DNA from: a virus
DNA length: 22,752 bases
Strand: one strand, 5' to 3'
IMG/VR virus record: IMGVR_UViG_3300000116_000257
Coordinates: 1 to 22,752 of that record
Under the pieces are notes generated by a model. That model was given only the letters and a program-made list of their open reading frames with translations. It was not told the DNA's origin and did not search any database. This document shows, one piece after another, positions 79-21,724 of this stretch. The number at the start of each line of letters is the position of its first letter. Position 1 is the first letter of the stretch. Position numbers and translations under genes: made by a program.

Positions 79-93
79 TTTTATTATAAATAT
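79..93 (-). promoter_or_regulatory. Candidate late promoter, copy 1
   Basis: On the minus strand this reads ATATTTATAATAAAA, identical at all 15 positions to the copies at 5272-5286 and 18141-18155. It contains TATAAT, which matches a sigma-70-type -10 hexamer, and ends 4 bases before the ATG at 74. Its first base overlaps the TAA stop of the nuclease gene (93-95). A promoter role is inferred from the position and repetition; no transcript data are available. Confidence 0.5.
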
Positions 94-881
94 TATAAGT
101 TTCTCTTAGCTGTAGTTTTAAATTCTGTAAATGTAGGAGAATGTCTTGGAAATTCTAAATCAAATAATTTTTTAACAGTATTAAAAATATCTAAATTTTC
201 TTCTTGTGTACGTTTTGATTCATGCATTTCCCACCCTTTACCTTTTATCTTTTTACCAGTTTTATCTTCTCCTCTTGATTTTGATTTTAACCACAATACA
301 CCTACTCTATCTACACTTTTACCATAACATTCTTCATAACATTGGGCATAAATAGCTCCTTGTAAATCATGGGTTATCTGTAGATTATTAGATGTTTTAA
401 AATCAATAATCCACATTTCAGTTTTACCATCAATTTCAATTTCACACACTAAATCACAAGTACCTGCTACTTTAATTTTATCTGAAAATAAATGTACTTC
501 TGCTTCAACTAGTGTAGGATTATAGGTTTCCCAAAAATCAACAAATTTTAAAAACATTTGCCAAACATCAGGGTTATATGTAGGTATACCATTAGATAAA
601 AAATTTAATTCCTTACCATTAAGATAATCCTCAATCATTTCATGCACTTGGGTACCTTCTTCAGCTGCTTTTTTAACAATCCAATCAGCACTAAAACCTA
701 CTTTTTTTAACCAATCTTGGAAATGTTTTCCTTTAGGATAACAACTTAAAACATAAGTTATTGATGGATAATATTTACCATTTCTACGATAATATCTTGC
801 ATCTGGTAGTGTGATTTGTTTTGAATCTTCACTAATTTCTAAAATCCTATTATAAGATTTTTTTATATTTCTTTTTTTCAT
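93..881 (-). CDS. PD-(D/E)XK nuclease, RecB/Cas4-like
   Basis: This 262-residue protein carries the motif series of the RecB/AddB/Cas4-type PD-(D/E)XK nucleases. In order these are a G-T-Q-V-H-E segment with His80, an acidic strand around Glu126-Glu128, G-T-C-D-L-V with Asp143, I-I-D-F-K-T with Asp160 and Lys162, and Q-G-A-I-Y-A with Gln174 and Tyr178. These residues bind metal and form the active site in the family, so an active DNA exonuclease or endonuclease is likely. I see no four-cysteine iron-sulfur cluster of the true Cas4 kind and no helicase domain. The ATG at 879-881 overlaps the TGA of the primase gene as ATGA, which argues for coupled translation and a shared role in replication or recombination. 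The exact role (end processing, recombination, host DNA degradation) is not determined. Confidence 0.8.
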   Translation of the reverse strand: MKKRNIKKSYNRILEISEDSKQITLPDARYYRRNGKYYPSITYVLSCYPKGKHFQDWLKKVGFSADWIVKKAAEEGTQVHEMIEDYLNGKELNFLSNGIPTYNPDVWQMFLKFVDFWETYNPTLVEAEVHLFSDKIKVAGTCDLVCEIEIDGKTEMWIIDFKTSNNLQITHDLQGAIYAQCYEECYGKSVDRVGVLWLKSKSRGEDKTGKKIKGKGWEMHESKRTQEENLDIFNTVKKLFDLEFPRHSPTFTEFKTTAKRNL

Positions 882-1810
882 ATTGATTGTAATTTCCTTT
901 CCATTAATTGGTAGGAGGTTAGGGGGAATGTATTTTGAATTAATTTTGTAAAATTATAAAACCCCATTTCACTAGGATCTTTTTCTTTAAGATCTATTAA
1001 ATAAACTTCTTTTCCTTCATTTATGAATTCTTCGGCAAATTTAACTGCTTGTTTCATAGCATCTGTATCTAATGCTATGTATATTTTTTCAATAGTAGAT
1101 GTTACTATTTTTTTCATTAATTCAGATTGTATATTTTTACCTAATAAGGGTATAGCATTGCGTTTTATAGCAATAGCATCAAACATACCTTCACATATAA
1201 CTAAAGGTAAAGACCAATTAATTAAATGTTCATTTGGTATTATATTTCTTGATGCTTCTGGATTTTTATATTTTATATAAGGATCTTTTTCAAATGATCT
1301 TCCTGTATAATAATTTAATTGTCCGTTTTTATTATAGGAGGGTATAATTACCATTTTAGAATATCTACCATACTCACAATATCCTATATTATATTTTTCA
1401 ATATCTTCAATAGTTATACCTCTATTTTTTAAATAAGCCCATGCTTGTCTTCCTATTATGTTTTTACTATTATTAGTTATAGGAGTAAATTCATCTGGTA
1501 GTTTTAAGTCATATTTAATTACTTCAGTATCCTTAACTTGATAACCCGTTTTTACTAATGACTTTAATTCTGAAAAATGTTCAGGTAGTGCTTTTACTTT
1601 TTTAAATAAAGTATTTAAATATTTTCCTTTTTCATTACAAACCCAACAATGCCAAGGATGATGACCTTTTTTATTATCTGTAAAATTAATTTCTAATTTG
1701 GGTTTAGAATGATTACATAAAGGGCAATGAAATGCCCTATTACCACGAGCAGTCATTTTTCCATCTCCTAATACTCTACTTACTAAGCTTACTAGTAGTT
1801 CATTTATCAT
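878..1810 (-). CDS. DNA primase, DnaG/T4 gp61-like
   Basis: This primase synthesises RNA primers for lagging-strand replication. An N-terminal zinc ribbon is formed by Cys29, Cys32, Cys55 and Cys58 (C-P-L-C and C-W-V-C). The middle holds the primase core. A TOPRIM domain carries I-C-E-G-M-F-D-A with catalytic Glu207, A-L-D-T-D with metal-binding Asp248 and Asp250, and a K-D-P-S-E motif near 277-281. The length (310 residues) suits a stand-alone phage primase; no helicase domain is fused. I chose the ATG at 1810. The frame stays open to a TTG at 1825, which would add five residues, but ATG is the rule among the neighbours. The gene follows the GIY-YIG gene by 18 bases and overlaps the nuclease gene by four bases (ATGA). 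Confidence 0.88.
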   Translation of the reverse strand: MINELLVSLVSRVLGDGKMTARGNRAFHCPLCNHSKPKLEINFTDNKKGHHPWHCWVCNEKGKYLNTLFKKVKALPEHFSELKSLVKTGYQVKDTEVIKYDLKLPDEFTPITNNSKNIIGRQAWAYLKNRGITIEDIEKYNIGYCEYGRYSKMVIIPSYNKNGQLNYYTGRSFEKDPYIKYKNPEASRNIIPNEHLINWSLPLVICEGMFDAIAIKRNAIPLLGKNIQSELMKKIVTSTIEKIYIALDTDAMKQAVKFAEEFINEGKEVYLIDLKEKDPSEMGFYNFTKLIQNTFPLTSYQLMERKLQSI

Positions 1811-1828
1811 ATGGGGAATATACAAATA

Positions 1829-2329
1829 TTATTTTATATCTCCAAAGTCACGTGTAAAAAACTTACCTAAAATATTATCATTAATATGAGCACTATATTT
1901 GTTTTCTAATACTTCATTTAAAAATAAATATTTAGTTTCATAATAGGTAAGTAGTTTTTTATTTGGTACAAATTCTAATATACGTTTTTCCCAATTTTTT
2001 CCATCATTATCTTTTTTAGATAAATCTAATATTTCTTTTTGGGATCCAAAATAATATTTCCAATCAGATTCAGTTATTATTTTTTGTTTTTGGGGAGTAC
2101 GTCCTTTAAGACCTTGTTTAGATCTTTCTTCTTTTAAAGCTTGTAATGCTTTTTTACCTAATTTTTTATTTCTTTCAAAATAAAGAACTTTTTTACCTAT
2201 ATATCTTATGTCAGTAGGTTTATACCTAACTTCATAAATAAACCCATAGGTTCCTTCAGGCATGTCTTCTATTGATGTTATAACCCTTCCCTGGTGTACC
2301 CAAGCAGCGGTTGTTGGCATATCTATCAT
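1829..2329 (-). CDS. GIY-YIG-like endonuclease
   Basis: This 166-residue protein has the two signature strands of the GIY-YIG nuclease fold: G-F-I-Y-E-V at residues 29-34 and R-Y-I-G-K-K at 42-47. A basic region at 52-83 and S-D-W-K-Y-Y-F-G-S at 88-96 follow. The latter (S-D-W-x-x-Y-x-G-S) is common in phage proteins of this class. Glu131 in the Y-Y-E-T-K-Y-L-F helix is in the right place for the metal-binding glutamate, and an Asn-rich turn follows at 150-152. No NUMOD or helix-turn-helix DNA-binding module is visible, so it may be a simple nuclease rather than a full homing endonuclease. A second in-frame ATG four codons in (2320) is an alternative start. It sits between virion genes and the primase. 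Confidence 0.68.
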   Translation of the reverse strand: MIDMPTTAAWVHQGRVITSIEDMPEGTYGFIYEVRYKPTDIRYIGKKVLYFERNKKLGKKALQALKEERSKQGLKGRTPQKQKIITESDWKYYFGSQKEILDLSKKDNDGKNWEKRILEFVPNKKLLTYYETKYLFLNEVLENKYSAHINDNILGKFFTRDFGDIK

Positions 2330-2336
2330 TTAAATA

Positions 2337-3524
2337 TTATTGAGTATCAAATGCTACTTGAATTTCTAAATCTGCATTCATTGGTACTTTTGTTGCTGCT
2401 GACAGTTTTCCAATAGCTAATAAGTTTTGATCATTATCATATAATCCTACAGTTGTAATGTAAGGACTAAAATATGATCCTGTTGCAAAATCTTTATAAA
2501 CTGTATTTTGTCCTAAAATGCTTTGTGAGTCTTGACTACCAGATAATAATGATGGGTTTAATGAATATCCAAATTCATTTTCTCTTACTACACATTTATA
2601 TTGATGTTCATATAAAGTAACTGATGATGAAAATCCTACAGTTAAATTATCTATATTGTTTGAACTTCCATTAAATCCATTTTGACCTATTAAAACATCT
2701 AGTCCAAGCATTGCTACTAATGATTGTTGAATACCTTCAACATCACCTGAGGCACTTATAGGTGTTAATATAGCATTTCCATGTTCATAAATTATATTAC
2801 CACAATATTGACCATTTACTAAGGCTGTTCCAAAAGGATCTACATATTTAAATTTAAGATCTCCATCTCCATCATCATAAACAGTAAAAATGTTACCCGC
2901 ATTTAAATTATTAAATACTAAACTAAAACTTTGAGGTTCAATATTACTGCCCCATAATTTAGAAGGAATAGAAACCATTGATAAAAAATTATTATTGCTA
3001 TTTGACTGTACTGTTAAATCTTCTCCTAATAATGCTGTTCTAGTTTGAGTAATAGTACTTGATAGATAATTATCATATTGTGGACTTTTTATAGCTCCAA
3101 TAGAGATATTATTAGATCCACTAATACCCAAATTAATATTATTATTTTCAGCAAATGTATTATTTTGGGAACCTTCTAAACCATATAATAAACTTGAAGT
3201 TAATGCTAAACTACCAGATTGACTGTCAAAATAATTAGAATAATAAAGTTGCATTACACTAGAATAAACTGAATTTGTATTTAATTTATTTACAAATCCT
3301 GTAAAGTTTTGTGATCCTGAAACAGATGATGCTTGGTTAGATTGCCATAAGGATTGTTGGGAAGTTTCAAATATTAATTTACTAGCTGGGGGTTGGGTGC
3401 CAAAATAAATTTCAACTCCAACATTAGATGCCGTCATAGCATTTCCTGTAAATCTAAATCCTTTATTAGCTGAAAAAGGAGTTATTACAATATCCTTGGT
3501 TGTAAATTGTTTGTACGCTGACAT
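2337..3524 (-). CDS. Probable virion structural protein, paralog of its upstream neighbour
   Basis: I do not recognise a named family for this 395-residue protein. It is rich in Ser, Asn, Gly and Thr, with alternating hydrophobic strands, no signal peptide and no membrane segment, as expected for a beta-rich phage virion protein. Its C-terminus (about 323-395) matches the C-terminus of the 349-residue product just upstream. Both contain N-P-S-(L/F)-(L/V)-S-G-S, later I-T-T-V-G-L-Y and A-(I/V)-(G/A)-K-L-S, and end in a strand with alternating hydrophobics. The region just before (V-R-E-N-E-F-G-Y-S here, V-R-A-Q-N-S-D-F-N-Y there) also aligns. Its place after the baseplate genes suggests a tail or baseplate component. 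There is no ribosome-binding site, and the gap to the preceding gene is 6 bases. Confidence 0.65.
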   Translation of the reverse strand: MSAYKQFTTKDIVITPFSANKGFRFTGNAMTASNVGVEIYFGTQPPASKLIFETSQQSLWQSNQASSVSGSQNFTGFVNKLNTNSVYSSVMQLYYSNYFDSQSGSLALTSSLLYGLEGSQNNTFAENNNINLGISGSNNISIGAIKSPQYDNYLSSTITQTRTALLGEDLTVQSNSNNNFLSMVSIPSKLWGSNIEPQSFSLVFNNLNAGNIFTVYDDGDGDLKFKYVDPFGTALVNGQYCGNIIYEHGNAILTPISASGDVEGIQQSLVAMLGLDVLIGQNGFNGSSNNIDNLTVGFSSSVTLYEHQYKCVVRENEFGYSLNPSLLSGSQDSQSILGQNTVYKDFATGSYFSPYITTVGLYDNDQNLLAIGKLSAATKVPMNADLEIQVAFDTQ

Positions 3525-3530
3525 ACATTT

Positions 3531-4580
3531 TTAGTAATCTAATTTAACCCTAACAAGTAGTTCTTTTGTAAAATCTTTAACTAGTGGTCTACTTAATTTT
3601 GCTACAGCACATAATTCATTTGAATTGTTATATAAACCAACTGTAGTAATAAATGTTTGTGGGTTATTATACATAGTATTCCATAATAATTGTCCATTTG
3701 ATCCTGATACAAATGATGGATTTGAAGAATAATTAAAATCTGAGTTTTGGGCTCTTACAAAATAAAAATCAGATGCCAAAGTTTCTTGAGAATTTAAACG
3801 AAATGAATTTCCATCTTCCATACTAAGTGATATAGCTGTATTTAATTTGGCCATATTATCATCATTTGTATTTGAATTTCTTCCAGTAGCTAAGTTAATT
3901 CCTCCATCAGTTGCAAAAGCATTGGCACCATCTAATGCATCACCATTTAATAATATTAATCCTACATCAGGTAAAAATAAACCATATGATCCTGAATCTG
4001 GTGTATACCCATTAGCATTAAGAGTAGTATATACTGTTCCTTCTGATCCTGATACTACTTGATAAACTCTTCCAGCATTCCCAAATACATTTCCTGTACT
4101 TACTTTACTATTATCTGTTAAAGTTAATGTATCTGATCCATTTTTTAATGAAAGAGCCATTGTTCCTAATGCTAAGGATTCTTTATATCTTGATCTTTCA
4201 ATAGCTAAGGCATAAAAATATGATCCTGTAAAATCACCAAATATAAAAGGATTAGTATCATCACCCAAAGCAATATTTTGATATTGTCCAAATATTGTTG
4301 ATGATGGTGATTTACCATCAACCAAAACATTATAAAGTAAACTACCACTACCTACTTCATCCGCATAAGCTATGTCAAACTGAACAGCTGAATTTGTTTC
4401 AGTAGAAGCAGTTTGATATACATGAAGATAATATTGTCCTGTATTTGATGCTGCTTGAACTGATGATGTAAATATTTCTGTTAATCTTGGAGCATTATTG
4501 CTCCATGCAGTTCCTGTTATAGAATCTATACTATTAATTATATCACCTGATCCAAATTGTGTAAAAGCTCCGTTAGCCAT
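3531..4580 (-). CDS. Probable virion structural protein
   Basis: This 349-residue beta-rich protein has no membrane segment or signal peptide. Features include an N-terminal I-W/A-W-S-N-N-A-P-type segment (around 25-32), a run Q-F-D-I-A-Y-A-D-E-V-G-S-G-S near residues 68-81, and A-I-E-R-S-R-Y-K-E-S-L around 126-136. I recall this combination from conserved virion proteins of large myoviruses, but I cannot give a precise function. The C-terminus (287-349) is shared with the downstream 395-residue product, pointing to duplication. It starts at an ATG in a T/A-only leader, 25 bases after the 217-residue gene. Confidence 0.65.
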   Translation of the reverse strand: MANGAFTQFGSGDIINSIDSITGTAWSNNAPRLTEIFTSSVQAASNTGQYYLHVYQTASTETNSAVQFDIAYADEVGSGSLLYNVLVDGKSPSSTIFGQYQNIALGDDTNPFIFGDFTGSYFYALAIERSRYKESLALGTMALSLKNGSDTLTLTDNSKVSTGNVFGNAGRVYQVVSGSEGTVYTTLNANGYTPDSGSYGLFLPDVGLILLNGDALDGANAFATDGGINLATGRNSNTNDDNMAKLNTAISLSMEDGNSFRLNSQETLASDFYFVRAQNSDFNYSSNPSFVSGSNGQLLWNTMYNNPQTFITTVGLYNNSNELCAVAKLSRPLVKDFTKELLVRVKLDY

Positions 4581-4605
4581 ATTTTTATTTTATTTAAATT
4601 TATTT

Positions 4606-5259
4606 TTATTGCATTCCTGCTGATTTTCTCAGCTCAAATGGAACTTGTAATCTTGCTCCTGTACCTCTACCTACAATAGTTAAAGTAGCATATAATACAT
4701 CAGCTGTTCCAAATATATTAATTGATGTAGCTGCTAATGTAAAATTAGTACCTGTTACTGTTTTAGAAACATTAGTACCTAATGTTTGTTGAGTATTTAA
4801 AGCATTATTAGCATTAGCTCCTCCTCCTGTAATATTAGCATAAGTAATATTAGACATTGTTACAGTATATCCCTCTGCTTCTGGGGCAGTTCCTTCAAAA
4901 GTTTGAGTTTGGGGTGTTATAGCTGGGGTTGTAGATTCTCCTGTTACTAATTGAATTGTACTAGTCCCAACAGTTATAGTAGGCATTACTGCTGTTGATC
5001 TAGGTAATGTAACTAATTTATATTTCATTGTTTGCAATTCATTAGGAAAAGCTTCTAATACAGGCATATTTTCAATAGCTTCCCCATAATATGCTGATCC
5101 TGATGGGTGAGAAGGATTATATAATGAATAATCTACTTCATCATCTGATAATGAAAATTGTGTTATATTAAAAGCATTACCACCTTGAGCTAGTAATTCT
5201 CTTCCCTTTTTAGTTAAAATAGCATCTACTGTTACTACTTGATTATTTAAATATCCCAT
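4606..5259 (-). CDS. Conserved virion-associated protein, unknown function
   Basis: This 217-residue protein has two visible parts. Residues 1-87 hold a distinctive module: V-D-A-I-L-T-K-K-G-R-E-L-L-A near 11-24, F-S-L-S-D-D-E-V-D-Y-S-L-Y around 35-47, then N-P-S-H-P and I-E-N-M-P-V-L-E-A-F-P. This module occurs in proteins of large contractile-tail phages that are annotated only as structural. Residues 88-217 are Thr/Val/Gly-rich alternating strands, like an Ig-like or beta-sandwich domain. It is probably the first gene of a transcript, because the 58-base gap before it carries the 15-base promoter-like motif ending 12 bases before the ATG. Confidence 0.62.
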   Translation of the reverse strand: MGYLNNQVVTVDAILTKKGRELLAQGGNAFNITQFSLSDDEVDYSLYNPSHPSGSAYYGEAIENMPVLEAFPNELQTMKYKLVTLPRSTAVMPTITVGTSTIQLVTGESTTPAITPQTQTFEGTAPEAEGYTVTMSNITYANITGGGANANNALNTQQTLGTNVSKTVTGTNFTLAATSINIFGTADVLYATLTIVGRGTGARLQVPFELRKSAGMQ

Positions 5260-5271
5260 TTTTTATTAGTA

Positions 5272-5286
5272 TTTTATTATAAATAT
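5272..5286 (-). promoter_or_regulatory. Candidate late promoter, copy 2
   Basis: The minus strand reads ATATTTATAATAAAA, exact over 15 bases with copies 1 and 3. It lies in the longest intergenic gap of the window (5260-5317), after the giant wedge gene, and ends 12 bases before the ATG at 5259. The repeated gap-only placement suggests the start of a transcript for the downstream virion genes. Confidence 0.55.
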
Positions 5287-5317
5287 ATGTATTTTTTATT
5301 TTTAATCCAAATTATAA

Positions 5318-8300
5318 TTAACTTACATCTTGAGTTTCATTTGCATCTGGTGGATTTGTAAATGAATTTTGTGATTTTAACACATTAATTATTTTTTGAA
5401 CATTATCTTGTTGTGTTGGTGATAAATCATCAGGTATTAAATACCCATCTCCCGATGGGGTTATAGCTCCTTTCTGATTAATAGGTTGTGCCATATCTAC
5501 TATAACTTTAGTATCATCATTAACTCTTTTTACAATGGTAGCTGCAGAAATACTTCCTGAAGTGATTGGTTTAGGTAAAGTTGTAGGATCAGGTGATACT
5601 ATTAAAGTATCATACACAAAACCAGGATCAAGTGGATGATAAGCAGATCCATCCTCAACTACAGCAGAAAATTTAGATGGTGAAAAGGCGGGTGATGTTG
5701 TTTTAGGATCAAAACCTTCCCAAGATGCAGTAATTGGATTTCCAGAAGTATTAAAGCCCATTTCCATACCTGTTCTTAAGAAAGCTTGAGTAGTACCTAT
5801 TGCACCTTGTTCATTTGTTATATCACTTCCCCAACCTTGTAGTGTTAACCTTAAACTACCTGTTGGAGATATTATCCCACTAGAAGCACTTTGTTCACCC
5901 CATCTAGTTATAACTTCACAATTTAATAATGATCCTGTAGCTGCCTTGTTATTATTACTATCATTAATTACCATCATCCAAGGTTGTCCATTTTCAATCA
6001 TTAAGTCATACCTTTCTTTTAAGCTATCAGGAGAATATAATCCTGTTGGGGGTAAATCTTGAATATCAGCATAAAAAGTATTACCTGCTGTTGATGTTCC
6101 TGGAAAACCAGTTGCCCACCCATACTGTGTAGATCCATTATAAGGATAAGCTGCTTGTATGTGTACTATTGGGGGTGCTAATTCATAACCTAATACTGTA
6201 AAATCTACATTAATTAATTCATTATTAGATAAAGAATTAAAGTCAACTCCTCCATTATTTGTGGCATCTATAGCAGATGGAAAAGCATATGTAACTCTAA
6301 TTATATCTCCTTTTTCTATCATTACAGGAAGATTTCTATCAGTATATTCTGTTACAGCAGATTGAGAATAGTTGTATGTGAAATAATTTTCAATTCCTCT
6401 AGTACCATCTTGTGTTATTGGTAAATCTGGTAGACGGGTTTGGCTAACCCCAATAGTTCCTACAGGATCTTCTACAAAAGTAGATGAACACCAAGGCCAT
6501 GGAAAGAAATTACCTCCCTCATTTGAAGCCCACATTGCTGTAACATTATCCTTGCTAGTTATTTGGGTATTTGGGCTTACAGTAGCATTAGGAGCTGTTG
6601 CCCATCCTTGTGTTGATGAGGTATAAGCTATATTTCCATTATTAATATTATGATTAGCACTATTTATTAATTGTAAATGAGGGCCATTCATATCAAGTCT
6701 AACAATTGTAGCAACACCAGGAAAATTATATTGGTATAAATCTTCAGCATTTGTAGCATACCCCATTACATATAATAACCCATGTCCTTTATTTTTACTT
6801 GAGGGTGAACTACCTGTTTGGAACAATACTAAACTATTAGTATCACTAAATCCTGGGGATGGGAGTATACTTTGAGTAACTAAAAATCTATCGGAATTAA
6901 TTGGAGTACCATTTTTTGTACTAAGTATGTTCCAAAGAGGAGCAGTTGCGCCAGCTGATTTATTATGGTTAACACTAACATCTGTCCAATTAGGAGCATT
7001 AAAAGATTGAGTTTGTAATAATTCGAATGGTGTTTTTTGATTAGTAAAACTTGATGCTATATCTTGAGCTGGGGTGTAAATATATTTAGAAATATTTGTT
7101 AAATTACTATAATCTAATACAGGTGAAACTATTTCTGATATAGTTGGTGTTAAAGAAGTTTTTAAATTTCTAAATTGTTTTGTAGATTGATTATAAACTA
7201 CTTTTAATTTTCTATTAGGTGGAAAAGTACTTGCTACTGGAATTAAATTTTCGTTATTTCCTGTTAATTGTGAAGATGTAATAATTGGGGCTTGTTCTCC
7301 TTGAATAGATTCAAAAGGTATACTTATTAATTGATCTATTTCAAACGTACTTGTTCCAAATTTTTCTAAATTTTCATATGAAGATTTAAAATGAGCAAAA
7401 TTAATAGGACGGTTATCAATTGCAGAAATATATTCTGATGTTTTATCGCCTTCCCAACTACCAGTATCATCATTTAAAAATCTAATTTTACTTTGAAGTT
7501 TTAAATCTGGGGCCATTAAAGGACTAAATAATCCTGAAGGTTCTTGGCTTTCTGATAGATTAGCTTCAGTTATTCTAAAGTTATAATCCGCACTAGTTAT
7601 TTTACTACCATCATATCTAGGATTAATTATAGTTGTTGTTGTATAATTACTTTCAGGAACTTCAGCATACTCTAATAAATTAATGTTTGTTGAAGTTGCA
7701 CCTTTAAATCCTAATTCAGATGATGAGATTAATAAAGAATAATCTGAAGGTATTCCTTCTGTTTGTGATGATCCAGGTATTACAGGATCAAAATCCATAT
7801 CAAATAAAAATGAATTTTCTCTACTACCACTTACATTATTAATTGTAGGATTATATGGTGAATTTTGGAATAATTGACTTTGAGAAGGTACAATAGTAAA
7901 TCCATCTCTTTCATAGAAATGTTTAGGACCTAATGTATTTATTAAGGTAATAGAATCAATTTTAAGTCTAAATTGTTCTTGTCCAATGGCTGATGTAAAT
8001 AATTCTACTCCCCCATTATCAAATCCAGATCCAGGGCCCGAAGAATAGGGTTGAAGTAAAGGATCATCAGGATAATTATTTGTAGCTACAAATTGGTATG
8101 TAAAGTCTACTTGACCTGCATCACCAGCAGGGATTAAAAATCCTGAAAATTCAGCTAAAAGCGTTCCGGTGTGTGTTAAAAGTGTTTGTGGATAGACATT
8201 TGAAATGGATGTACCCGTTGGTCTACTATAATGACCCTTTATCTCATATGTTGCACCCGGTACTAGATTAAAAAACGATCCTGTCCAAAATTGGCTAGTA

Positions 8301-11300
8301 AATGCAGCAACACCTTCAGAAGCTGTTATTTGGGTGGCTGATCCTATAGTGAAGTAAGAAGGATTTCCACCCCCTTGAGTAAAATCAACATATGGAGTTG
8401 GAGCGGTTGATGTTGAAAATAATGTATCAGGTGTCTTATCATTCCCATCAGCAAATATTCTATAAGGATTATATTGAGTAGGAATAACTTCAAAATTACT
8501 ACCACTAAATTCACCATCATAAAATTCTTCTTGTGTACTTTTAATTTTATAATCTCCTGTAAAATCATCTAAATACCACCAAGCTTGTTGAGAAACAGAA
8601 GCTGAAGGAGGAACTCTTTGGGTTTGGGGAGCAATTGCTGATGATCTAGTATTAATAAGAATTTGATATGAAGTAGAATTAGAAGTTGCTCCTGTTGATT
8701 CAATTGTAAAATAAATTCTTTCACCAGGTGAAAATATAAAATTACCAAATTGAACTTCTTGATTACCAGCTGTTATTGTAATTGATTTTTCACTGATAAG
8801 TCCTCTTAAAGTGGAAAATAATTTTAATACAGTAACTGCTCCAAAAGTTGGAACGGAGTAAGTGCTCAATAGAACTATTGGATTACATTGAATTCTAACA
8901 GTAGTTTCAAGTAATTGAAGAGTATCATCAGCTATAATAATATTTTCTTGAACATCAAAACCACTGGCACCATTAAAACTTGCTGTAACGGGGGTAGTAC
9001 TTGGTATAAATCCAGTTACAGCATCTCTAAATGATCCTGATAATGCTTCAATTATATTATATTTATTAATACTTCCACCAGCACTACCTGTTAAAGAACC
9101 TACCCCTATACTTGAAGTAATTAATAGATTTCTTTGTGATATTACACTATTAAATCCTGTTTGATCAGTATAACCATAAACATTAGAGCCGGTTTCAGGC
9201 GTTTTAGCCACAGAAGTATTAGGATTAACCCCAATCACTGTGGAAGCATTGTTTCGTTCTAATAGATGCTGTTTTACGATAATTCCTGTGCTTAAACTTG
9301 TACGAGCAGGTACATAATTTTTTATCGCTTTAAATAATGATGTTTCATAAAATTGGATTAATCTATTATAATCAAATTCTTGAGGAATTAAAGTAACAGG
9401 AGAATTATTTTGAACTGTATTGTTGACATTAAATCCTTGATATTTTTTAAAATAATCTTCAGCTATACGAGTTAATTCTGGATATCTATCTGTTGATTCT
9501 GATAAGAATCTTGGATCAGCAATTGCATCAGACACAACACCATGTCCAAACGTTGCAATTATATCATCATTTATTTCATTTTGGAATGAAAAGCCAACTT
9601 CTAAGGAATTTAAATCTTCAGTATAACTTGAACTTTGTTCAAATTCTTGTTGTATACTTCTAAAAGGTGATAATGTAGTACCATATTCATTACCATCAAT
9701 TACTTGTATTTTATTTTTTATTCTATTTCTAATACCAGCTGCTGGCTGGTCCATATAATTAATTTCAGTATTAGGAGTAAACCAAGATGCTGTAATGTAT
9801 TGATTATCTGGACCTACTGCTATTTTCCAATTATAAAAACTACTAGTAGCAAATCCTCTAGTAGAACTAACAGATGGATTTTGTAGAAATGAAGATGTAA
9901 ATAATTCACCTGTTGAATTTACAATAGAAGGATGAATAGATCCTACTCCTTTATCTGTTCCTGCAACATTTTGACCTGCAAAAAAATCATTAACAGGATT
10001 ACTATAATTACCTGTTGCTGAAAAAATATGACGAAAGCCTACAGGTTGATAAACAAATTCTAATTCATTACCTAATGGAGCTCTAAATGATAATAAATCA
10101 TAGGAACTACCAGCTCCTGTATTAGAATCTGAGTGGCCTTGTATAGATTCAGGATTCATTACGTAATCATTAAAAGAAGATGCTGACATTGCTCTTCTAT
10201 AATATCTAAATTCTTGGAATTCCCCTACAAAAGGTCGTCCTATAAATTTACCCCCAACTTTCATAGGATTTTTAACACCAGGAGATCCTATTAAATTATT
10301 AGTACCATTCCCAAAATCTCCATCAAAAGGAGCTATACCTCCTAAACCTAATCCTTTTTTATTAGTTCCTGCATTAACTACATCAAACCCCATATTGTTC
10401 CAAGCTTCATTTATTGAAGATGAAATTTTATTGTCTATCATTGTAATAGATGCTGATGCTTGAAATCCAATTTGATTACCATCATAACCATCATATATGC
10501 TATTTGCTACCCTTAATTCATACTCATTAAGTGTATTATCTTGGTTAGATGCTGATAAATTAGTTAGTCTTTGTAATTGAACTGACCACCAACCATCATC
10601 AAAAAATGGTAAGGAAATTTTTGATGAAGTAAAATAATGACGTCCTGTTGTTTGAGTACCTTCTGTACCCCCATCAGCAGCTGATCCAGATATTACAAGT
10701 TGTAAAGTTCCATATTGTGAATCTGTTGGTAAGGCAGAACCACTAAATGATCCTGAATTTGAACCTGAGTATTCTAATACTAAACCAAAAGCACTAGGAC
10801 TATTAGGAATATTACCTCCTACCCCATCAAACCAAGGTTTTGCTAATAAAGAAGAAGTAAAGAATTGATCTGGTCCTATAGGTTTTTTATTTTTAAATCT
10901 AAATTGAATACAATCAGGAACTGACATATAATTTGCTGATGGAGAATTTTCATCATAAAAATTATTTGTAAGAGGTAACCAAGGTATTTGAACAGAACTA
11001 CTAGCTTGTGTTCCTATTGTTGTTGCAGTATTTTTTACTAAAGAACCAGAGTATGTTTTAAGTGCTGAGCTATAACGATTCATCCATAAATCATAATCGT
11101 TTTCATCATCTTTATTTTTTCCTCCAAATTCACTTATACGAAGCATTGTACTAGGAACACCCCAAATATTAATTAATTGTCTTAATCCAGTAACTGTTCC
11201 TTTTCTTTTTACTAAAGAAACCATATTATGAAATATTCTTTTATATATTTCTTGGGCAGCATTATCTATAGGGTAGGGGAATGATGGGTCTGCTAATGCT

Positions 11301-13003
11301 ATAACATATCCTAATGTTGATTCTTGTTGATCATAATAATTTATAACAGATCCAGAAGCAATATCTATATAACGAGTTATATATTCTAATCCTGATCCTG
11401 CAGATGGTACTACTGCAATTTGGTTAGGATTAAACCCTATAGAATTAAAACTATTTCCATAAGTTTCAAACCCTAAGGACTCAATTACATCATCTGCTAA
11501 ACCTAAAGGTAAAACATCTCCAGTTAAACTAGAATTAGTATTTCTAATTTGTTCTACAGCTTCTGTATAAAGATACATTTCATCAAAAGCTTGTCCTGTC
11601 ATATTTACAAATGTAGTATATTGTTCATTACTACTATTGTCGGTTATAAAGGGTGGTATTAAATAATATAAATAGTTTTGATTATTATTATCATATCTAG
11701 AAGCAGAATAAATTTGATTTTTTCCTGTATTATAATAAGGATTTGATTCATCTGTAGATCCAAACCAATTTTTTATTACTGAACTTGTTACTGAAAAATT
11801 AGCATAAGGGTAAGTTGAAGTATATTTAGGCCATGATTCTGATCCTGTTATATAATATAAAAAATATTCATAACTATCAAATTTACTAATAATATTATTT
11901 ATATTATTACTAGCGTTATTATAACTAGAGGAATATTCTGAGGTTGTTTTATTTAAAGATCCTATATTTTCAAGAGATGAAATTTCAGCTGAGGAACTTT
12001 CAATTGAAACCATCTTATTATAAAAATTATTTAATCTTTGTTCTGCTGAAGAATAATTTATAAATTGACTCCAATCAGACCAGTCTTTTCTTAATATTAC
12101 CCCTTTTTGATCTCTTAAAGAATTAAATTGATAGTATGATTCAGAGTTTGCAGTATTTATTAAGTCATTTAAATTTTTAAAATTAGTAGAATTATTTATT
12201 TTATCTTTTAGATCTATATTATAATTAGGACCCTTTAATGAAAGTAAATTATCTACAAATTCTAAATTAGGTTGAAATTCAACTTTAAATACTCTACTTT
12301 CTCCTACTTTTGAAATTATTTGAATTTCTGTTTCTACTTCAAAATTAATTGGTAGAGGTTTATATAATTTTATTAATATAGAAGTTGGTCTAATTGAACC
12401 CGAAGATGGGGATACTAATTGACTATTTACAGCTATAAAATTTCTATTATTTCCAAAAGAAATATAAAATTCATCTACATTTTCTCTAGCATTTAGTTTA
12501 GCATTAAATTGGTTATAATAAGATTCAATTTGATTCTGGGAAAGAAAATTATTTTGTATTCTCAATTCTGTTCTATCACCTGATATTTCTGAAATAAAAT
12601 AGGGATGTGATTGATATATGCCTTCAATTTCTTCTGAGTTTTCTGATCCTAACTCATAGTCAATAAAATTATATACAGCATAATATTCACCTGAAGAATA
12701 TCCTTGGTCATATATATCCTTTGTTGGATTTAATTCAAATTGATTATAACTAGAAGATGAATTAGAATTAGCAGTAGTTACTGGTGGTGTTAAATATGAA
12801 CCAACTGCATTATAATTTGAATTTTGATGTAAAATATTTTGAAAAATATCATATATAAATAATTGGGTTTTACTCTGAAATGGGGTAAATGAACCTGTTA
12901 GTTCTATTGAAGGTATAATATTATCTAAACTTAATTCATAACCTTCTGAAATAAAGGCTTCAGCGTTTAACTGTATTAATGATGATGAAATTGGTATAGC
13001 CAT
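5318..13003 (-). CDS. Giant baseplate wedge protein, gp7/P2 gpI-like, with LamG-like domain
   Basis: This 2561-residue protein is the largest product here. T4 gp7, the functional counterpart suggested by order after gp25 and gp6, has about 1030. Residues 1-570 contain Tyr/Asn/Ser-rich strands and an aromatic-rich segment. Around 580-617 a helical segment reads Y-K-R-I-F-H-N-M, then K-R-K-G-T-V-T-G-L-R, then I-N-I-W-G-V-P; this resembles the GT-containing core of P2 gpI-type wedge proteins. About 700-960 looks like a LamG/concanavalin-type sandwich (D-G-W-W-S-V-Q-L near 799, F-R-Y-Y-R-R near 930). About 1120-1255 is a second helical segment ending in F-K-A-I-K-N-Y-V-P-A-R-T-S-L-S and Q-H-L-L-E-R-N. 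The remaining roughly 1300 residues are beta-rich, with a jelly-roll or CBM-like stretch near 1535-1690. The role is inferred: it joins wedges and may touch host glycans. Confidence 0.75.
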   Translation of the reverse strand: MAIPISSSLIQLNAEAFISEGYELSLDNIIPSIELTGSFTPFQSKTQLFIYDIFQNILHQNSNYNAVGSYLTPPVTTANSNSSSSYNQFELNPTKDIYDQGYSSGEYYAVYNFIDYELGSENSEEIEGIYQSHPYFISEISGDRTELRIQNNFLSQNQIESYYNQFNAKLNARENVDEFYISFGNNRNFIAVNSQLVSPSSGSIRPTSILIKLYKPLPINFEVETEIQIISKVGESRVFKVEFQPNLEFVDNLLSLKGPNYNIDLKDKINNSTNFKNLNDLINTANSESYYQFNSLRDQKGVILRKDWSDWSQFINYSSAEQRLNNFYNKMVSIESSSAEISSLENIGSLNKTTSEYSSSYNNASNNINNIISKFDSYEYFLYYITGSESWPKYTSTYPYANFSVTSSVIKNWFGSTDESNPYYNTGKNQIYSASRYDNNNQNYLYYLIPPFITDNSSNEQYTTFVNMTGQAFDEMYLYTEAVEQIRNTNSSLTGDVLPLGLADDVIESLGFETYGNSFNSIGFNPNQIAVVPSAGSGLEYITRYIDIASGSVINYYDQQESTLGYVIALADPSFPYPIDNAAQEIYKRIFHNMVSLVKRKGTVTGLRQLINIWGVPSTMLRISEFGGKNKDDENDYDLWMNRYSSALKTYSGSLVKNTATTIGTQASSSVQIPWLPLTNNFYDENSPSANYMSVPDCIQFRFKNKKPIGPDQFFTSSLLAKPWFDGVGGNIPNSPSAFGLVLEYSGSNSGSFSGSALPTDSQYGTLQLVISGSAADGGTEGTQTTGRHYFTSSKISLPFFDDGWWSVQLQRLTNLSASNQDNTLNEYELRVANSIYDGYDGNQIGFQASASITMIDNKISSSINEAWNNMGFDVVNAGTNKKGLGLGGIAPFDGDFGNGTNNLIGSPGVKNPMKVGGKFIGRPFVGEFQEFRYYRRAMSASSFNDYVMNPESIQGHSDSNTGAGSSYDLLSFRAPLGNELEFVYQPVGFRHIFSATGNYSNPVNDFFAGQNVAGTDKGVGSIHPSIVNSTGELFTSSFLQNPSVSSTRGFATSSFYNWKIAVGPDNQYITASWFTPNTEINYMDQPAAGIRNRIKNKIQVIDGNEYGTTLSPFRSIQQEFEQSSSYTEDLNSLEVGFSFQNEINDDIIATFGHGVVSDAIADPRFLSESTDRYPELTRIAEDYFKKYQGFNVNNTVQNNSPVTLIPQEFDYNRLIQFYETSLFKAIKNYVPARTSLSTGIIVKQHLLERNNASTVIGVNPNTSVAKTPETGSNVYGYTDQTGFNSVISQRNLLITSSIGVGSLTGSAGGSINKYNIIEALSGSFRDAVTGFIPSTTPVTASFNGASGFDVQENIIIADDTLQLLETTVRIQCNPIVLLSTYSVPTFGAVTVLKLFSTLRGLISEKSITITAGNQEVQFGNFIFSPGERIYFTIESTGATSNSTSYQILINTRSSAIAPQTQRVPPSASVSQQAWWYLDDFTGDYKIKSTQEEFYDGEFSGSNFEVIPTQYNPYRIFADGNDKTPDTLFSTSTAPTPYVDFTQGGGNPSYFTIGSATQITASEGVAAFTSQFWTGSFFNLVPGATYEIKGHYSRPTGTSISNVYPQTLLTHTGTLLAEFSGFLIPAGDAGQVDFTYQFVATNNYPDDPLLQPYSSGPGSGFDNGGVELFTSAIGQEQFRLKIDSITLINTLGPKHFYERDGFTIVPSQSQLFQNSPYNPTINNVSGSRENSFLFDMDFDPVIPGSSQTEGIPSDYSLLISSSELGFKGATSTNINLLEYAEVPESNYTTTTIINPRYDGSKITSADYNFRITEANLSESQEPSGLFSPLMAPDLKLQSKIRFLNDDTGSWEGDKTSEYISAIDNRPINFAHFKSSYENLEKFGTSTFEIDQLISIPFESIQGEQAPIITSSQLTGNNENLIPVASTFPPNRKLKVVYNQSTKQFRNLKTSLTPTISEIVSPVLDYSNLTNISKYIYTPAQDIASSFTNQKTPFELLQTQSFNAPNWTDVSVNHNKSAGATAPLWNILSTKNGTPINSDRFLVTQSILPSPGFSDTNSLVLFQTGSSPSSKNKGHGLLYVMGYATNAEDLYQYNFPGVATIVRLDMNGPHLQLINSANHNINNGNIAYTSSTQGWATAPNATVSPNTQITSKDNVTAMWASNEGGNFFPWPWCSSTFVEDPVGTIGVSQTRLPDLPITQDGTRGIENYFTYNYSQSAVTEYTDRNLPVMIEKGDIIRVTYAFPSAIDATNNGGVDFNSLSNNELINVDFTVLGYELAPPIVHIQAAYPYNGSTQYGWATGFPGTSTAGNTFYADIQDLPPTGLYSPDSLKERYDLMIENGQPWMMVINDSNNNKAATGSLLNCEVITRWGEQSASSGIISPTGSLRLTLQGWGSDITNEQGAIGTTQAFLRTGMEMGFNTSGNPITASWEGFDPKTTSPAFSPSKFSAVVEDGSAYHPLDPGFVYDTLIVSPDPTTLPKPITSGSISAATIVKRVNDDTKVIVDMAQPINQKGAITPSGDGYLIPDDLSPTQQDNVQKIINVLKSQNSFTNPPDANETQDVS

Positions 13004-15500: not shown

Positions 15501-15511
15501 ATTTTTTTATT

Positions 15512-17374: not shown

Positions 17375-17781
17375 TATTGTATTGCTATATTAATTTGATC
17401 TTCTGCTCCTATGTTACGAATTAAATAATTTACAAATAAATTTATTGTATTACTGTCAGCTTGATTGTTAAAGTTTACACTTTTTACTTGAATTTGAGGA
17501 AATTCTACAGATATATTATTTTTAATTCTTTCTTCAATAGCTGTATCAGTTCCGTCATTAATTCCTTCTCCAATAAAATCTCTTAAATTTGCACCAAAAG
17601 TAGGTCTCATTACTCTTTCACCCTTATTAGTTAATAACCAATTAAGTAAATTGGTTCTTATTACTTCTTTAGCTGTATAAGTAGGATTAAATACTGCATT
17701 TCCTGATAAAGGAAAGCTAAACCCTAAGGCTGCGCTACCACTTTCTTGGGTGGGAAATACATTATCTACAATTTGAGCCAT
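17374..17781 (-). CDS. 25: Baseplate wedge protein gp25 (GPW/gp25 family)
   Basis: This small wedge protein contacts the sheath and initiates its polymerisation; the family was once called lysozyme-like, but that activity is not expected. The 135 residues fit the family. Visible signature: I-R-T-N-L-L-N-W-L-L-T-N-K-G-E-R-V-M-R-P (about 41-60), then F-G-A-N-L-R-D-F-I. This is the conserved helix and G-E-R-x-x-x-P-x-F-G motif of GPW/gp25. The C-terminal strands (Q-I-Q-V-K-S-V-N-F, I-N-L-F-V-N-Y-L-I) complete the fold. Start and stop both sit in TAATG junctions with the neighbouring genes. Confidence 0.93.
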   Translation of the reverse strand: MAQIVDNVFPTQESGSAALGFSFPLSGNAVFNPTYTAKEVIRTNLLNWLLTNKGERVMRPTFGANLRDFIGEGINDGTDTAIEERIKNNISVEFPQIQVKSVNFNNQADSNTINLFVNYLIRNIGAEDQINIAIQ

Positions 17782-18134
17782 TATTTACTATTCATTAAAT
17801 TCATTATTTGATCCATTCCAACATTTCCTTCTGGTAATGTACCATTAGCTACATCCATTCCTGGGTTAGGTCTAAAATTTTGAGCATTATTAGTATTAAA
17901 TCCTGCTGCTGTTTCTCCTAAAATATTTTTATAAGCATCTCTTTTTTCCTGAGAAGACATAACAGGAGTTGTTGGAGATGGTTGAGGAATTGATGGGGAG
18001 AAGGATTCCATGACTGGAGATTGAGATACTATTTTTGGAGTTTTTACAGCTTCTAAAAGTATATCTTTTAATTCTTCTTGTATTACTTCTCTAACAGTTT
18101 CTTTAAGTACTTTTTTTAATTCTGTTAATTTCAT
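17781..18134 (-). CDS. Small protein with amphipathic N-terminal helix, baseplate operon
   Basis: This 117-residue protein starts with a strongly amphipathic Lys/Glu/Leu/Ile helix (residues 1-31, K-L-T-E-L-K-K-V-L-K-E-T-V and R-E-V-I-Q-E-E-L-K-D-I-L). A Pro/Ser-rich linker follows (37-60), then an Asn/Gly/Met-rich tail. Small proteins of this layout recur in large myoviruses, but I know no function. It is the first gene of the block that continues with gp25 and gp6, and the 15-base motif ends 6 bases before its ATG. It could be a chaperone or minor virion protein. Confidence 0.55.
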   Translation of the reverse strand: MKLTELKKVLKETVREVIQEELKDILLEAVKTPKIVSQSPVMESFSPSIPQPSPTTPVMSSQEKRDAYKNILGETAAGFNTNNAQNFRPNPGMDVANGTLPEGNVGMDQIMNLMNSK

Positions 18135-18140
18135 CTTTAA

Positions 18141-18155
18141 TTTTATTATAAATAT
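18141..18155 (-). promoter_or_regulatory. Candidate late promoter, copy 3
   Basis: The minus strand reads ATATTTATAATAAAA, exact with copies 1 and 2. It lies in the 45-base gap between the 642-residue gene and the 117-residue gene and ends 6 bases before the ATG at 18134. It would drive the wedge block (117-residue protein, gp25, gp6 and onward). Confidence 0.55.
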
Positions 18156-18179
18156 TAATAATTTTTGTTTTTATATCAA

Positions 18180-20108
18180 TTATGACCCCGTAGGTACGGG
18201 TAAACCATTTCTACCGAATTCAAAATACCATTTATCAGCTGTTGTTAAACCAGCATTTACATTATTTTGATTATATGAACTTGAATTTGGATTAGCTCCC
18301 CCAGGTGACCAGAATGGTAATTCAGAAGCTATTTGGGCATTTGCATTATACCAATTTATTCCTAATGTATTTTTAAGTTTTAAGAAAATTTGTGTTTTAG
18401 AGTATGCTTCAATTTGTTCATATGTTAAACCATCATTAGTAATAGCAACATCTTCATAGAGACCTTCACCAATTAAATTATTAATCCAATAATCTTCACT
18501 TATAGATTTTTGTGATTGGTATATGTTATTTATTTCATTGGAAGTAATTACTTCAGTAGCATTTCCACTTATTGGAATTTCATTGATAATAGGTTGATTA
18601 TAACCATGGTTTTTACTTAAAAAATATTCTTTTAGGGGATCATTAAAATTAATTCCTGCACCTGCTAAAAATTTTAAATTTGCTACTTCAAAAACAGCTT
18701 GGAGAAGTAGTTTTCGTTTAGCCATTTCTGGTCTTAGACTGATAAATTCACTTCCTATAGTATTATCATTATATAAATTTTCTGCTGTTAAAGCTAATCT
18801 TTCTGAATATGGATATAATCTTCCATCACTAGCAAATGCAAAATTTCCATCTTCACTATATCTTTTTGTTGTAGGGCTATAACTACCACCTATATCTTTT
18901 GCATTTTCAACTAGACCTTCAGCAGTTCTTCTAATTGAACTAATTTGAGCTTCTATTGCTTGATCACCACCCCCAAAATCTGCTAAAAATAATCTTTTAA
19001 TAGTTGTATCTAATACTCTATCACCTTGTTGCCATTCATATCCTTCATTAGCAACGGCTTGTTCTAAAATAGTTCTTGAATTATCAAATGCTTCTTGAAC
19101 TAATGTTGGGTAATAAAAAGCAGTTGGTCCTTTATTTTGTGATAATTCCCAAGCTAATTCATATAATTCTTCAGCCTCTTCTCTGTTGGCACCAAAAAGA
19201 CTCATTAATATAATAATTTGATTTTCTCTATAAATAATTTTTAATGGATCTTCTTGAGGTTCTGGTAGTGGGAATATTAAATCTTTAGTATCAATTAACC
19301 ATTTCATTTCATTAACTAAAACAATATTTGAAGATGAAAAAGATTCATCACCCAATAATTCTTCTGTAGAATAACCTGAGTTATAGAAATCACCATCTAT
19401 AACAGATTCTTTATTTTGAGCTATTATTTGTTTTTTATTAAATGAAAATTCTTCTACTGTTGGTATAATTTCTTTTCTTAAATAATAATCACCATATAAT
19501 AAACCTGGTGAGGTAGTTAATATGTCTTCTAAATCTTCATTAGTTAATGCTACTACTATATCATCAATATTAACTATTGGTTCGGATGCCTCATTTAAGT
19601 CCTCTTGGGTAATATTAGGATCTTTTTCTAAACAAATATCTAATGCTACACTAAACTCATTTAATTTAGTAATCACTTCTCCAACATCTTTTTTAATTAA
19701 ATCTAAAGCATCTGGTATTGTTTCTAATGATGCTTTTTCTTTATCAATTAAAGTGCCTAAATTATCTAATGCATCAGAAAAATTATTCATTATACTTAAA
19801 GGTAAACCCACTCCTGGGGGTACTGATGATGGGATTGGAATTTGTTTTATTAAAGTTTTTCCAGCACTTAAAGCTTCTGTTGCTATTTCAGAACCTTTAG
19901 CTACTTTATTTAGAGTTGCTATCTTTTGATTTATTTGTTCTAAAGCATCACTAATTAGATTTTTTTGATAAATTAAAGATCTTAATTCATCAGTTGTAGG
20001 GCAGGCATCTTTAAATCTATCAATTAATACATCTAAAGTTTTATTAAACTGAAAAGTTGTTCTAGTTATACTAGTTACTATTTTTGATATAAATCCTGCT
20101 AAAGCCAT
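18180..20108 (-). CDS. Probable virion protein between hub and wedge genes
   Basis: This 642-residue protein has no family name I can give. Residues 1-165 are almost wholly helical and probably coiled (K-T-L-D-V-L-I-D-R-F-K-D-A-C-P near 23-37), interrupted by a Pro/Gly turn (P-I-P-S-S-V-P-P-G-V-G-L-P, 91-103). I recall this N-terminal layout from other large myovirus structural proteins. The middle and C-terminal parts are acidic and mixed, ending F-G-R-N-G-L-P-V-P-T-G-S. No signal peptide or obvious membrane helix is visible. It starts at TAATG overlapping the gp5-like gene, so a hub-associated or tail-tip role is likely by position only. Its last codons contain a GC-rich inverted repeat (18187-18200). 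Confidence 0.6.
   Translation of the reverse strand: MALAGFISKIVTSITRTTFQFNKTLDVLIDRFKDACPTTDELRSLIYQKNLISDALEQINQKIATLNKVAKGSEIATEALSAGKTLIKQIPIPSSVPPGVGLPLSIMNNFSDALDNLGTLIDKEKASLETIPDALDLIKKDVGEVITKLNEFSVALDICLEKDPNITQEDLNEASEPIVNIDDIVVALTNEDLEDILTTSPGLLYGDYYLRKEIIPTVEEFSFNKKQIIAQNKESVIDGDFYNSGYSTEELLGDESFSSSNIVLVNEMKWLIDTKDLIFPLPEPQEDPLKIIYRENQIIILMSLFGANREEAEELYELAWELSQNKGPTAFYYPTLVQEAFDNSRTILEQAVANEGYEWQQGDRVLDTTIKRLFLADFGGGDQAIEAQISSIRRTAEGLVENAKDIGGSYSPTTKRYSEDGNFAFASDGRLYPYSERLALTAENLYNDNTIGSEFISLRPEMAKRKLLLQAVFEVANLKFLAGAGINFNDPLKEYFLSKNHGYNQPIINEIPISGNATEVITSNEINNIYQSQKSISEDYWINNLIGEGLYEDVAITNDGLTYEQIEAYSKTQIFLKLKNTLGINWYNANAQIASELPFWSPGGANPNSSSYNQNNVNAGLTTADKWYFEFGRNGLPVPTGS
18187..18200. 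terminator. GC-rich hairpin at operon end, weak terminator candidate
   Basis: CCCGTA and TACGGG form a perfect 6-base inverted repeat separated by two bases (or a 5-base stem with a 4-base loop). It stands out in this A+T-rich sequence and lies in the last codons of the 642-residue gene, just before the gap with promoter-like copy 3. No clean T-run follows on the minus strand, so intrinsic termination is doubtful; it may only be coding sequence. Confidence 0.25.
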
Positions 20109-21349
20109 TATAAAGTTCTTGTTGTTTTAGATTTATAAAATTCAATTGAAGATAACATAGTTTGTGCTTGTAATCCTACTTTTGTTGCTGTCTGTGCTAC
20201 AGCTACATTAGGTACAAAAGGTATAGGTGTACCTACAGTACTTAAAGCACTTGTTAGGGTAACTACATTAGTTAGTAATTTTTGAAAATCTTTTAAAAAT
20301 TTATCTCCTAATATTAAGGGTTCAGTATTACTTTCTTCTTTATCCCCTAACATTATTTTAGTTCCTACTTTAACGACAAAATTAGAAGTAGTATCAAAAT
20401 TAAAACCTTTTTGTGCTCCAAATGAAATTGTTCTTGCGGAACTAAGTAAAATATGATCATTTTTAGAATTAAATAATAAACGTCCTGAGTTAATAATAAC
20501 TTGAGAACCATTATATGAACTAGGGGATGAAGGAACTTCACCAAAAGCAGGTGTATATGAACTATAATCAGTACTAGATGCTCCTATAGGGATAGTTTGA
20601 TTAGATGTTAAATAAATTGATGATTTATCTGTATTTATATTTTCTACTTGGGGAATCCAAGGATCATCTTCTGTTTTTGTTTGACCATTTTTTATAATAG
20701 TAATAGGTTCACCATTAACCCCACTATCAGACCATGGGTTTGGGGGTGTACTATTATTTACTGTACTTCCAAATCTTATAGTATTACCCCATCTTCCTTC
20801 AATTAAAATATCACCTTCATAAGGTTGCAAATTTCTAATAGGTCTTTCTTTAAAAGTAGTTCCTAAAGTAATGTCTTCATTTTCAACATCAGATTGTATT
20901 TCAACTCCAGCTTCAGTAACTCCGTATTTTTGAGCATTAGAAGGATTTGAAGCTAATGTATTAGGTAAGGCATTATGATGAGCGCTATTCCAAATATTAA
21001 TGCTTTGAAAATAATATAAAGCTTTACCACTGTTTACATTTGTTTGAGTTTCTACGGTAGGGAGAGAAATCAAATATACTATTTCATTTATTAAAGGTAA
21101 AATTTTAATATTTGAATATAAAGGTAAAGCAAATTGTAAACTTTCTAAGGTTTGATTTGAGGGATTTTCTAAATTTTCAAATAATATACCTCCTACACTA
21201 TTATATTCTCCATATTTTTCCCATGTAATAGGATAATCAGCCCCATTTAATGAAACAAATTTAACTCTTACTGCAGTTATTTGAGTTCCTTTGTCATTAG
21301 AGTTATTATCTCTAATTTTAGGAGATAATCCTGTAGGAATTCTAGCCAT
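20108..21349 (-). CDS. Baseplate hub/spike protein, gp5/VgrG-like without lysozyme domain
   Basis: This 413-residue protein probably forms the trimeric central spike below the tail tube. Residues about 23-120 look like an OB-fold region, with an L-P-L-I-N-E-I-V-Y-L-I-S-L strand pair near 84-96. Y-E-G-D-I-L-I-E-G-R-W-G-N-T-I-R-F-G-S (177-195) is the conserved G-R-x-G-x-x-I-R-x-G segment of hub spikes. Residues 282-350 form short repeating strands (S-Q-V-I-I-N-S-G-R-L-L-F-N-S-K, then I-S-F-G-A-Q-K-G-F) typical of a triple-stranded beta-helix. A P-L-I-L-G-D-K-F-L-K-D-F-Q-K-L-L helix follows, as in gp5/VgrG C-terminal regions. T4 gp5 has a lysozyme domain between OB fold and helix; nothing like it is seen here. 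Start and stop are both TAATG junctions. Confidence 0.75.
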   Translation of the reverse strand: MARIPTGLSPKIRDNNSNDKGTQITAVRVKFVSLNGADYPITWEKYGEYNSVGGILFENLENPSNQTLESLQFALPLYSNIKILPLINEIVYLISLPTVETQTNVNSGKALYYFQSINIWNSAHHNALPNTLASNPSNAQKYGVTEAGVEIQSDVENEDITLGTTFKERPIRNLQPYEGDILIEGRWGNTIRFGSTVNNSTPPNPWSDSGVNGEPITIIKNGQTKTEDDPWIPQVENINTDKSSIYLTSNQTIPIGASSTDYSSYTPAFGEVPSSPSSYNGSQVIINSGRLLFNSKNDHILLSSARTISFGAQKGFNFDTTSNFVVKVGTKIMLGDKEESNTEPLILGDKFLKDFQKLLTNVVTLTSALSTVGTPIPFVPNVAVAQTATKVGLQAQTMLSSIEFYKSKTTRTL

Positions 21350-21705
21350 TATTTATCTTTTTTTAAATCTTTAGATACTCTTTCTAATTTATCCATTTCA
21401 GCTAATAACTCAGCTTTTTCTTCTTCTGAAATGCCAAATTCACTATCATCATTAGTATTATTTACTGCTCTTTGAATAATAGTAGCCATTTTAATTAATT
21501 GTTCATCATTTTTAACTCCTATTTCTAAATATTCTTTAATTAAAGGTACTATTAAAGTAGCATCACCTATTTCCTGAATTAAAGGTTTTAATTCACTTAT
21601 TAGAGAAGTTATTTGTTGTTTTTTTGTTGTTTGATTATCATATATTTCATGCAAAATATCTGAAAATTTTTTATTACCAAATACTATTGAATCTAGTTGT
21701 CCCAT
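21349..21705 (-). CDS. Small helical protein, unknown function
   Basis: This 118-residue, almost all-helical acidic protein has no membrane segment or signal peptide. A Q-Q-I-T-S-L-I-S-E-L-K-P-L-I segment (30-43) and a C-terminal E-E-E-K-A-E-L-L-A-E-M-D-K-L-E-R helix (94-109) suggest coiled-coil interaction. I do not recognise a family. It is the first gene of the hub block, 4 bases after the fourth promoter-like site, and its stop overlaps the gp5-like start (TAATG). A tail assembly role is plausible by position only. Confidence 0.55.
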   Translation of the reverse strand: MGQLDSIVFGNKKFSDILHEIYDNQTTKKQQITSLISELKPLIQEIGDATLIVPLIKEYLEIGVKNDEQLIKMATIIQRAVNNTNDDSEFGISEEEKAELLAEMDKLERVSKDLKKDK

Positions 21706-21709
21706 AATT

Positions 21710-21724
21710 TTTGGTTATAAATAT
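21710..21724 (-). promoter_or_regulatory. Candidate late promoter, copy 4 (variant)
   Basis: The minus strand reads ATATTTATAACCAAA, matching 13 of 15 positions of the other three copies (AC-C replaces AT-A in the middle). It lies in the 34-base gap between the sigma factor gene and the hub block and ends 4 bases before the ATG at 21705. The variant base change alters TATAAT to TATAAC, so it may be weaker or differently regulated. Confidence 0.45.

Follow-up and report, generated by a model that had tools for sequence, protein, structure and literature searches.

What is the function of a 15-nt motif that recurs in the gaps between genes of a phage whose sigma factor gene lies next to one of the copies? 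The window, i.e., the whole stretch of DNA analysed, is 22,752 nt in length (IMG/VR record IMGVR_UViG_3300000116_000257). It is part of a large tailed phage that is kin of Flavobacterium phage immuto. All of its genes are on the minus strand, and they include those for a sigma factor, a baseplate wedge, an NAD synthetase family protein, a primase and an exonuclease. A protein of 2561 aa, for which neither PHROG nor NCBIfam gave a match, is encoded at positions 5318–13003, between baseplate-region genes and a 217-aa gene that has a hybrid promoter (described below). The sequence comparisons favor, with a probability of roughly 0.8, the reading of the motif as the core element of a -10-only late promoter that is recognized by the phage's own gp55-like sigma factor. 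The four copies are as follows.

Positions 21710–21724, minus strand: putative late promoter box, variant ATATTTATAACCAAA, directly after the sigma factor gene and 4 nt before the ATG at 21703–21705.
Positions 18141–18155, minus strand: putative late promoter box with the exact 15-mer; the ATG at 18132–18134 follows after 6 nt.
Positions 5272–5286, minus strand: putative late promoter box with the exact 15-mer; the ATG at 5257–5259 follows after 12 nt, and the box is kept in four related contigs (G008, G001, G014 and G015).
Positions 79–93, minus strand: putative late promoter box with the exact 15-mer; the ATG at 72–74, whose gene continues beyond the window, follows after 4 nt, and the same site is present in G008 and G001.

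The coordinates of the three exact copies of ATATTTATAATAAAA and of the 13/15 variant, which has two mismatches to it, were reproduced. As the original prediction had claimed, the three longest gaps of the window (58 nt at 5260–5317, 45 nt at 18135–18179 and 34 nt at 21706–21739) contain one motif each and the fourth copy is in an 18-nt gap (75–92). The motif in that gap overlaps the stop codon of the upstream gene by one base. The statement that an exact 15-mer is unlikely to recur by chance also holds: the 15-mer was seen 0 times in 100 second-order Markov simulations, none of which gave any 15-mer in three copies, and no other 15-mer reaches at least three copies on the minus strand of the window. 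The absence of copies inside genes is true of these four sites, but when two mismatches are allowed there are several chance copies within genes, e.g., at 12013, 13190 and 16940. At up to three mismatches the count in the window is 31 compared with a shuffle expectation of 26.8, which is no excess; nor does the window by itself show one at two mismatches. By sequence statistics the copy at 21710 is not significant alone and is secured by its orthologues; it is counted as genuine because 45 of 45 distinct window-like relatives have TATTTAT at the same place. A sigma-70 type reading of the window (TTGACA/TATAAT) was also tried and gave no excess over shuffles.

The closest cultured relatives are Flavobacterium phages immuto (41% identity for the sigma factor and 47% for the primase), and close marine contigs match the window at up to 97%. 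The comparison set consists of 12 sequences placed in one direction: ten relative contigs (40–156 kb, a few slightly short), immuto and the window. Gene calls come from a simple ORF caller, and genes were labelled as virion genes by homology to annotated immuto genes.

In this set, where some contigs are closely related to one another and the counts are thus not all independent, ATATTTATAAYNAAA is present in 69 sense and 0 antisense copies, nearly all in gaps and mostly 0–20 nt before an ATG. An even spread through coding sequence is thus not what the relatives display. Among 10-mers, ATATTTATAA shows the strongest enrichment ahead of gap-leading genes. It is found upstream of 83 of 258 genes with a gap of at least 20 nt but of only 8 of 387 genes without such a gap, and there are 0 occurrences on the reverse strand. 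The box is carried by 69 of 240 gaps, compared with a simulated mean of 2. A weight matrix gives 103 sense matches within 45 nt before gene starts, with 17 other sense and 8 antisense matches at the same threshold. The consensus has an invariant TATTTAT within [A/C]TATTTATWW, with YNAAA downstream in the window motif. Upstream of the box each column has less than 0.25 bit, i.e., there is no conserved -35 element, with the exception of about ten hybrid sites that have TTTGG or a similar sequence.

At the site that follows the sigma factor gene, all 115 distinct loci compared (45/45 window-like and 70/70 immuto-like) have TATTTAT between the sigma factor stop codon and the next ATG. The box mostly reads ATATTTATAA in the window-like loci, and CTATTTATWW is frequent in the immuto-like ones. 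No comparable pattern of the motif was seen in the 100 kb examined of jumbo phage LR756508.

The box is linked to a class of genes. It is found before tail sheath, tail tube, tape measure, head completion, gp73-like and baseplate-region genes. The expected enrichment in gaps before virion genes is borne out in the relatives, where the box precedes 25 of 42 virion gap-leading genes, so that coverage of this class is partial, versus 1 of 26 others (Fisher P 1.8e-6). In contig G020 the exact ATATTTATAA was not found before gap-leading genes of the replication (24–53 kb) and small-gene (72–98.5 kb) regions.

Orientation bears on an explanation in which the plus strand is the one that is read. Read on the plus strand, each site gives exactly TATAAATA, the T4 late promoter sequence, since the sense box includes its reverse complement, TATTTATA; a T4-type promoter pointing away from the following gene could be proposed. 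When TATAAATA was read by the same method over 49 kb of T4 as a control, it was on the sense strand and usually 14–28 nt before the next ATG, i.e., in T4 the box points at its gene. The gaps here have 36 sense and 138 antisense copies of TATAAATA, which is not the pattern of a T4-type sense box. The short distance to the ATG and the conserved YNAAA are both on the other side of the box, and a reversed promoter would yield antisense transcripts since nearly all genes are on one strand. A reversed T4-type promoter is thereby rendered highly improbable.

The candidate for reading the box in the sense direction is encoded in the window.

Positions 21740–22549, minus strand: phage sigma factor gene, 269 aa, gp55-like over residues 1–117 by hhalign, with a Pfam Sigma70_r2 match and fold matches mostly to sigma factors.

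The assignment to a gp55-like sigma factor, which the original prediction had made, is supported at the level of profiles. The Pfam Sigma70_r2 match is above cut-off, and hhalign of a family profile against a ten-member gp55 profile gives an E value of 4.9e-5 and a probability of 68%, colinear over residues 1–117. PHROG late sigma factor family 234 is matched by 8 of 58 relatives, with a best E of 8.8e-4. The family profile is needed, as single-sequence hhalign against T4 gp55 is not significant, and a direct PDB sequence search returned no relevant match. Foldseek searches with AlphaFold models found mostly sigma factors and one viral match at E 7e-5; these are taken as agreement only, because the models are moderate (pLDDT 64 and 73). 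The C-terminal ~150 residues, which end in YYDKGYFPS, do not align to gp55. In one of the models this part has helices at 175–192, 201–216, 225–235 and 240–263, and this helical domain (~175–263), absent from T4 gp55, could be a region-4-like or flap-binding domain. The T4 tail, a short C-terminus with a hydrophobic clamp-binding motif, is missing in some cyanophage gp55s.

Profiles for gp33 and gp45 (PF02916, PF09116, PF16805 and PF02768) found no match in G020, immuto or Microcystis phage Mel-JY01 in a search that is possibly too insensitive, and in G023, searched without PF02916, the other three were likewise not found, with the same doubt as to sensitivity. In the T4 control PF02916, PF09116 and PF16805 were detected. 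The sensitivity of the clamp search is doubtful because Mel-JY01 has annotated clamp-loader genes, yet no clamp was detected in it.

A second, bipartite signal, TTTGG-N15-TTYGTATATTW, marks the small-gene, early-type region in place of the late box. In 21 of 26 occurrences TTGG is exactly 19 nt before TTYG (start to start), and GGAA is at 23 nt in 20 further places, mainly in G020. Sites with this signal are also found in G008, G021 and immuto, as well as in G020. Elements of this type in the window are as follows.

Positions 1817–1846, minus strand: putative early-type bipartite signal, TTTGG-N15-TTTGTATATT, preceding the primase gene (ATG at 1808–1810).
Positions 5307–5311, minus strand: TTTGG upstream element in the early-type register; its TTGG starts 24 nt before the 5272 box, giving a hybrid site.

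Because the early-type signal spans 1817–1846, the TTG at 1825 that is listed as the start of the primase ORF (878–1825) is probably promoter sequence, and the ATG at 1808–1810 probably the true start. A subset of late boxes has TTGG exactly 24 nt upstream, in a register identical to that of the early-type signal; the main case is the 5272 site of the window and its orthologues. By its sequence elements the 5272 site is an early/late hybrid, and its description as a plain late promoter was thus incomplete. Since the hybrid sites share the early-type register, the late box appears to be tied to the -10 position of a promoter.

This common register would also be expected if the reader of the box were the host primary sigma factor, perhaps phage-modified, instead of that of the phage. 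The box resembles the host -7 element TAHHTTTG in its TA step and at some T positions (PMC6847099). However, the box has neither TTTG nor a -33 element, it marks virion genes only, and a phage sigma factor gene is present in every relative followed at the site, although these loci were chosen by that gene. Recognition by the host sigma factor is accordingly given little credence.

The original prediction had also divided the window into transcript blocks at 21705–18180, 18134–5318, 5259–about 93, and 74 onward. The 5' ends proposed for the blocks fit and are reasonable, but the proposed block ends have no support, as no terminator-like site was found at the four motif gaps. The third block is incompletely described: the primase within it has its own early-type promoter, as judged from the signal at 1817–1846. 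An RNA element, e.g., an mRNA cleavage or processing site that heads cistrons, would account for blocks with no terminators between them and for a motif that is AU-rich and intergenic. It would leave these genes without a promoter-like element, as no other conserved column of that type is upstream of them, and it does not explain why some boxes are in the register of the bipartite early-type signal. An RNA processing site is very unlikely.

A ribosome-binding or A-rich leader element, used in place of a Shine-Dalgarno sequence in Bacteroidota, must be weighed as well. The box is 0–20 nt before the ATG and ends in AAA, and an A at -3 is favored in F. johnsoniae translation (PMC6847099). Shine-Dalgarno-like sequences are present at only 3–6% in the window phage group, at or below background, versus 43% in Mel-JY01 and 66% in T4; this scarcity fits a Bacteroidota host. 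Against such an element, the spacing from box to ATG varies widely, from -3 to 28, and the box is largely absent before intra-operon genes (the 8/387 given above). Mel-JY01, a cyanophage whose sigma factor is 32% identical, provides a separate comparison. In the part of its genome that was read, the 100-nt stretches that precede annotated genes contain 13 sense and 0 antisense copies of ATATTTATR. Of these 13, eight are at 30–39 nt before the start (~33 nt), usually with a Shine-Dalgarno-like sequence between box and start. Retention of the box while the leader lengthens fits DNA that is read by RNA polymerase and not a ribosome signal, and a role in translation has only a slight chance of being correct.

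The late promoter reading thus has parts of different strength. It is very likely that the motif acts as a promoter, and likely that this promoter is late and virion-specific. Strand bias, location in gaps, bias toward virion genes and conservation strongly support the proposal of late promoters; the pairing of motif and neighboring sigma factor is likely and is drawn indirectly. The sequence of the box, its strand, position, gene class and conservation, and the separate early-type signal are seen directly, and from them we infer promoter activity, late timing, sigma recognition and start site. RNA polymerase with the phage sigma factor would recognize the box as a -10-only promoter pointing toward the following gene, with no -35 partner at most sites. 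In T4, roughly one helical turn separates the late box from the start downstream of it (PMC2988020). If the geometry is as in T4 (box at about -13 to -6), the predicted start is near motif positions 13–15, inside the conserved AAA; with ATATTTAT at -13 to -6, +1 would be motif position 14. In orthologues of the 18134 gene the motif is 0, 1 and 6 nt from the conserved ATG, spacings that are compatible with initiation near position 14 and incompatible with initiation near 18. An alternative, TATAAT-style alignment, in which TATAAY would occupy -12 to -7 and the start would be at position 18, was rejected, as orthologues with conserved N-termini leave 0–1 nt to the ATG. The leader would be about 0–20 nt long. 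Leaders this short would be tolerable, given that Shine-Dalgarno sequences are not used by these phages or, presumably, by their Bacteroidota hosts. In F. johnsoniae, the leader exceeds 10 nt in most transcripts (PMC6847099).

From sequence only, these results map early-type and late promoters in a group of marine phages for which just one cultured relative was found. In the library searched, no paper was found that combines the 10-mer with "phage" and "promoter", and papers that name immuto appear, from their titles and abstracts, to be on topics unrelated to transcription. A scan of these genomes with the T4 TATAAATA would put late promoters on the wrong strand. Mel-JY01 represents a natural experiment, in which the box is retained with a leader ~25 nt longer in a genome that uses Shine-Dalgarno sequences. 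Immuto makes it testable whether the T4 coupling of late transcription to replication through the clamp holds outside T4's family. A tentative and rather doubtful extension is that this is a distinct system, with a gp55-related sigma factor that has a new C-terminal domain, a -10-only TATTTAT promoter, no T4-type clamp or co-activator, and leaderless or nearly leaderless late mRNAs in hosts that ignore Shine-Dalgarno sequences.

Among known systems, Bacteroidota primary-sigma promoters (TTTG / TAHHTTTG), likely the host's own, have the TA step and some T positions in common with the late box, but differ in the TTTG and -33 elements that its conserved columns lack. In T4-like cyanophages such as S-PM2, a late motif NATAAATA was identified in silico before virion genes, together with a gp55 homologue (PMC2984593). 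That motif has the T4 orientation, opposite to the box here, and all those cyanophages carry g33 and g45. T4 itself uses gp55 with gp33 and gp45, and the latter two were not detected here by the possibly insensitive search described above. The box here, [A/C]TATTTATWW, is the reverse complement of that of T4, and its distance to the ATG is ~0–20 nt versus 14–28 nt in T4. Features in common with T4 late promoters are a box that is short, consists of A and T only and lies about one turn upstream of the (here predicted) start, AT-rich sequence downstream, the lack of a -35 element, a position before virion genes, and a phage-encoded gp55-like sigma factor.
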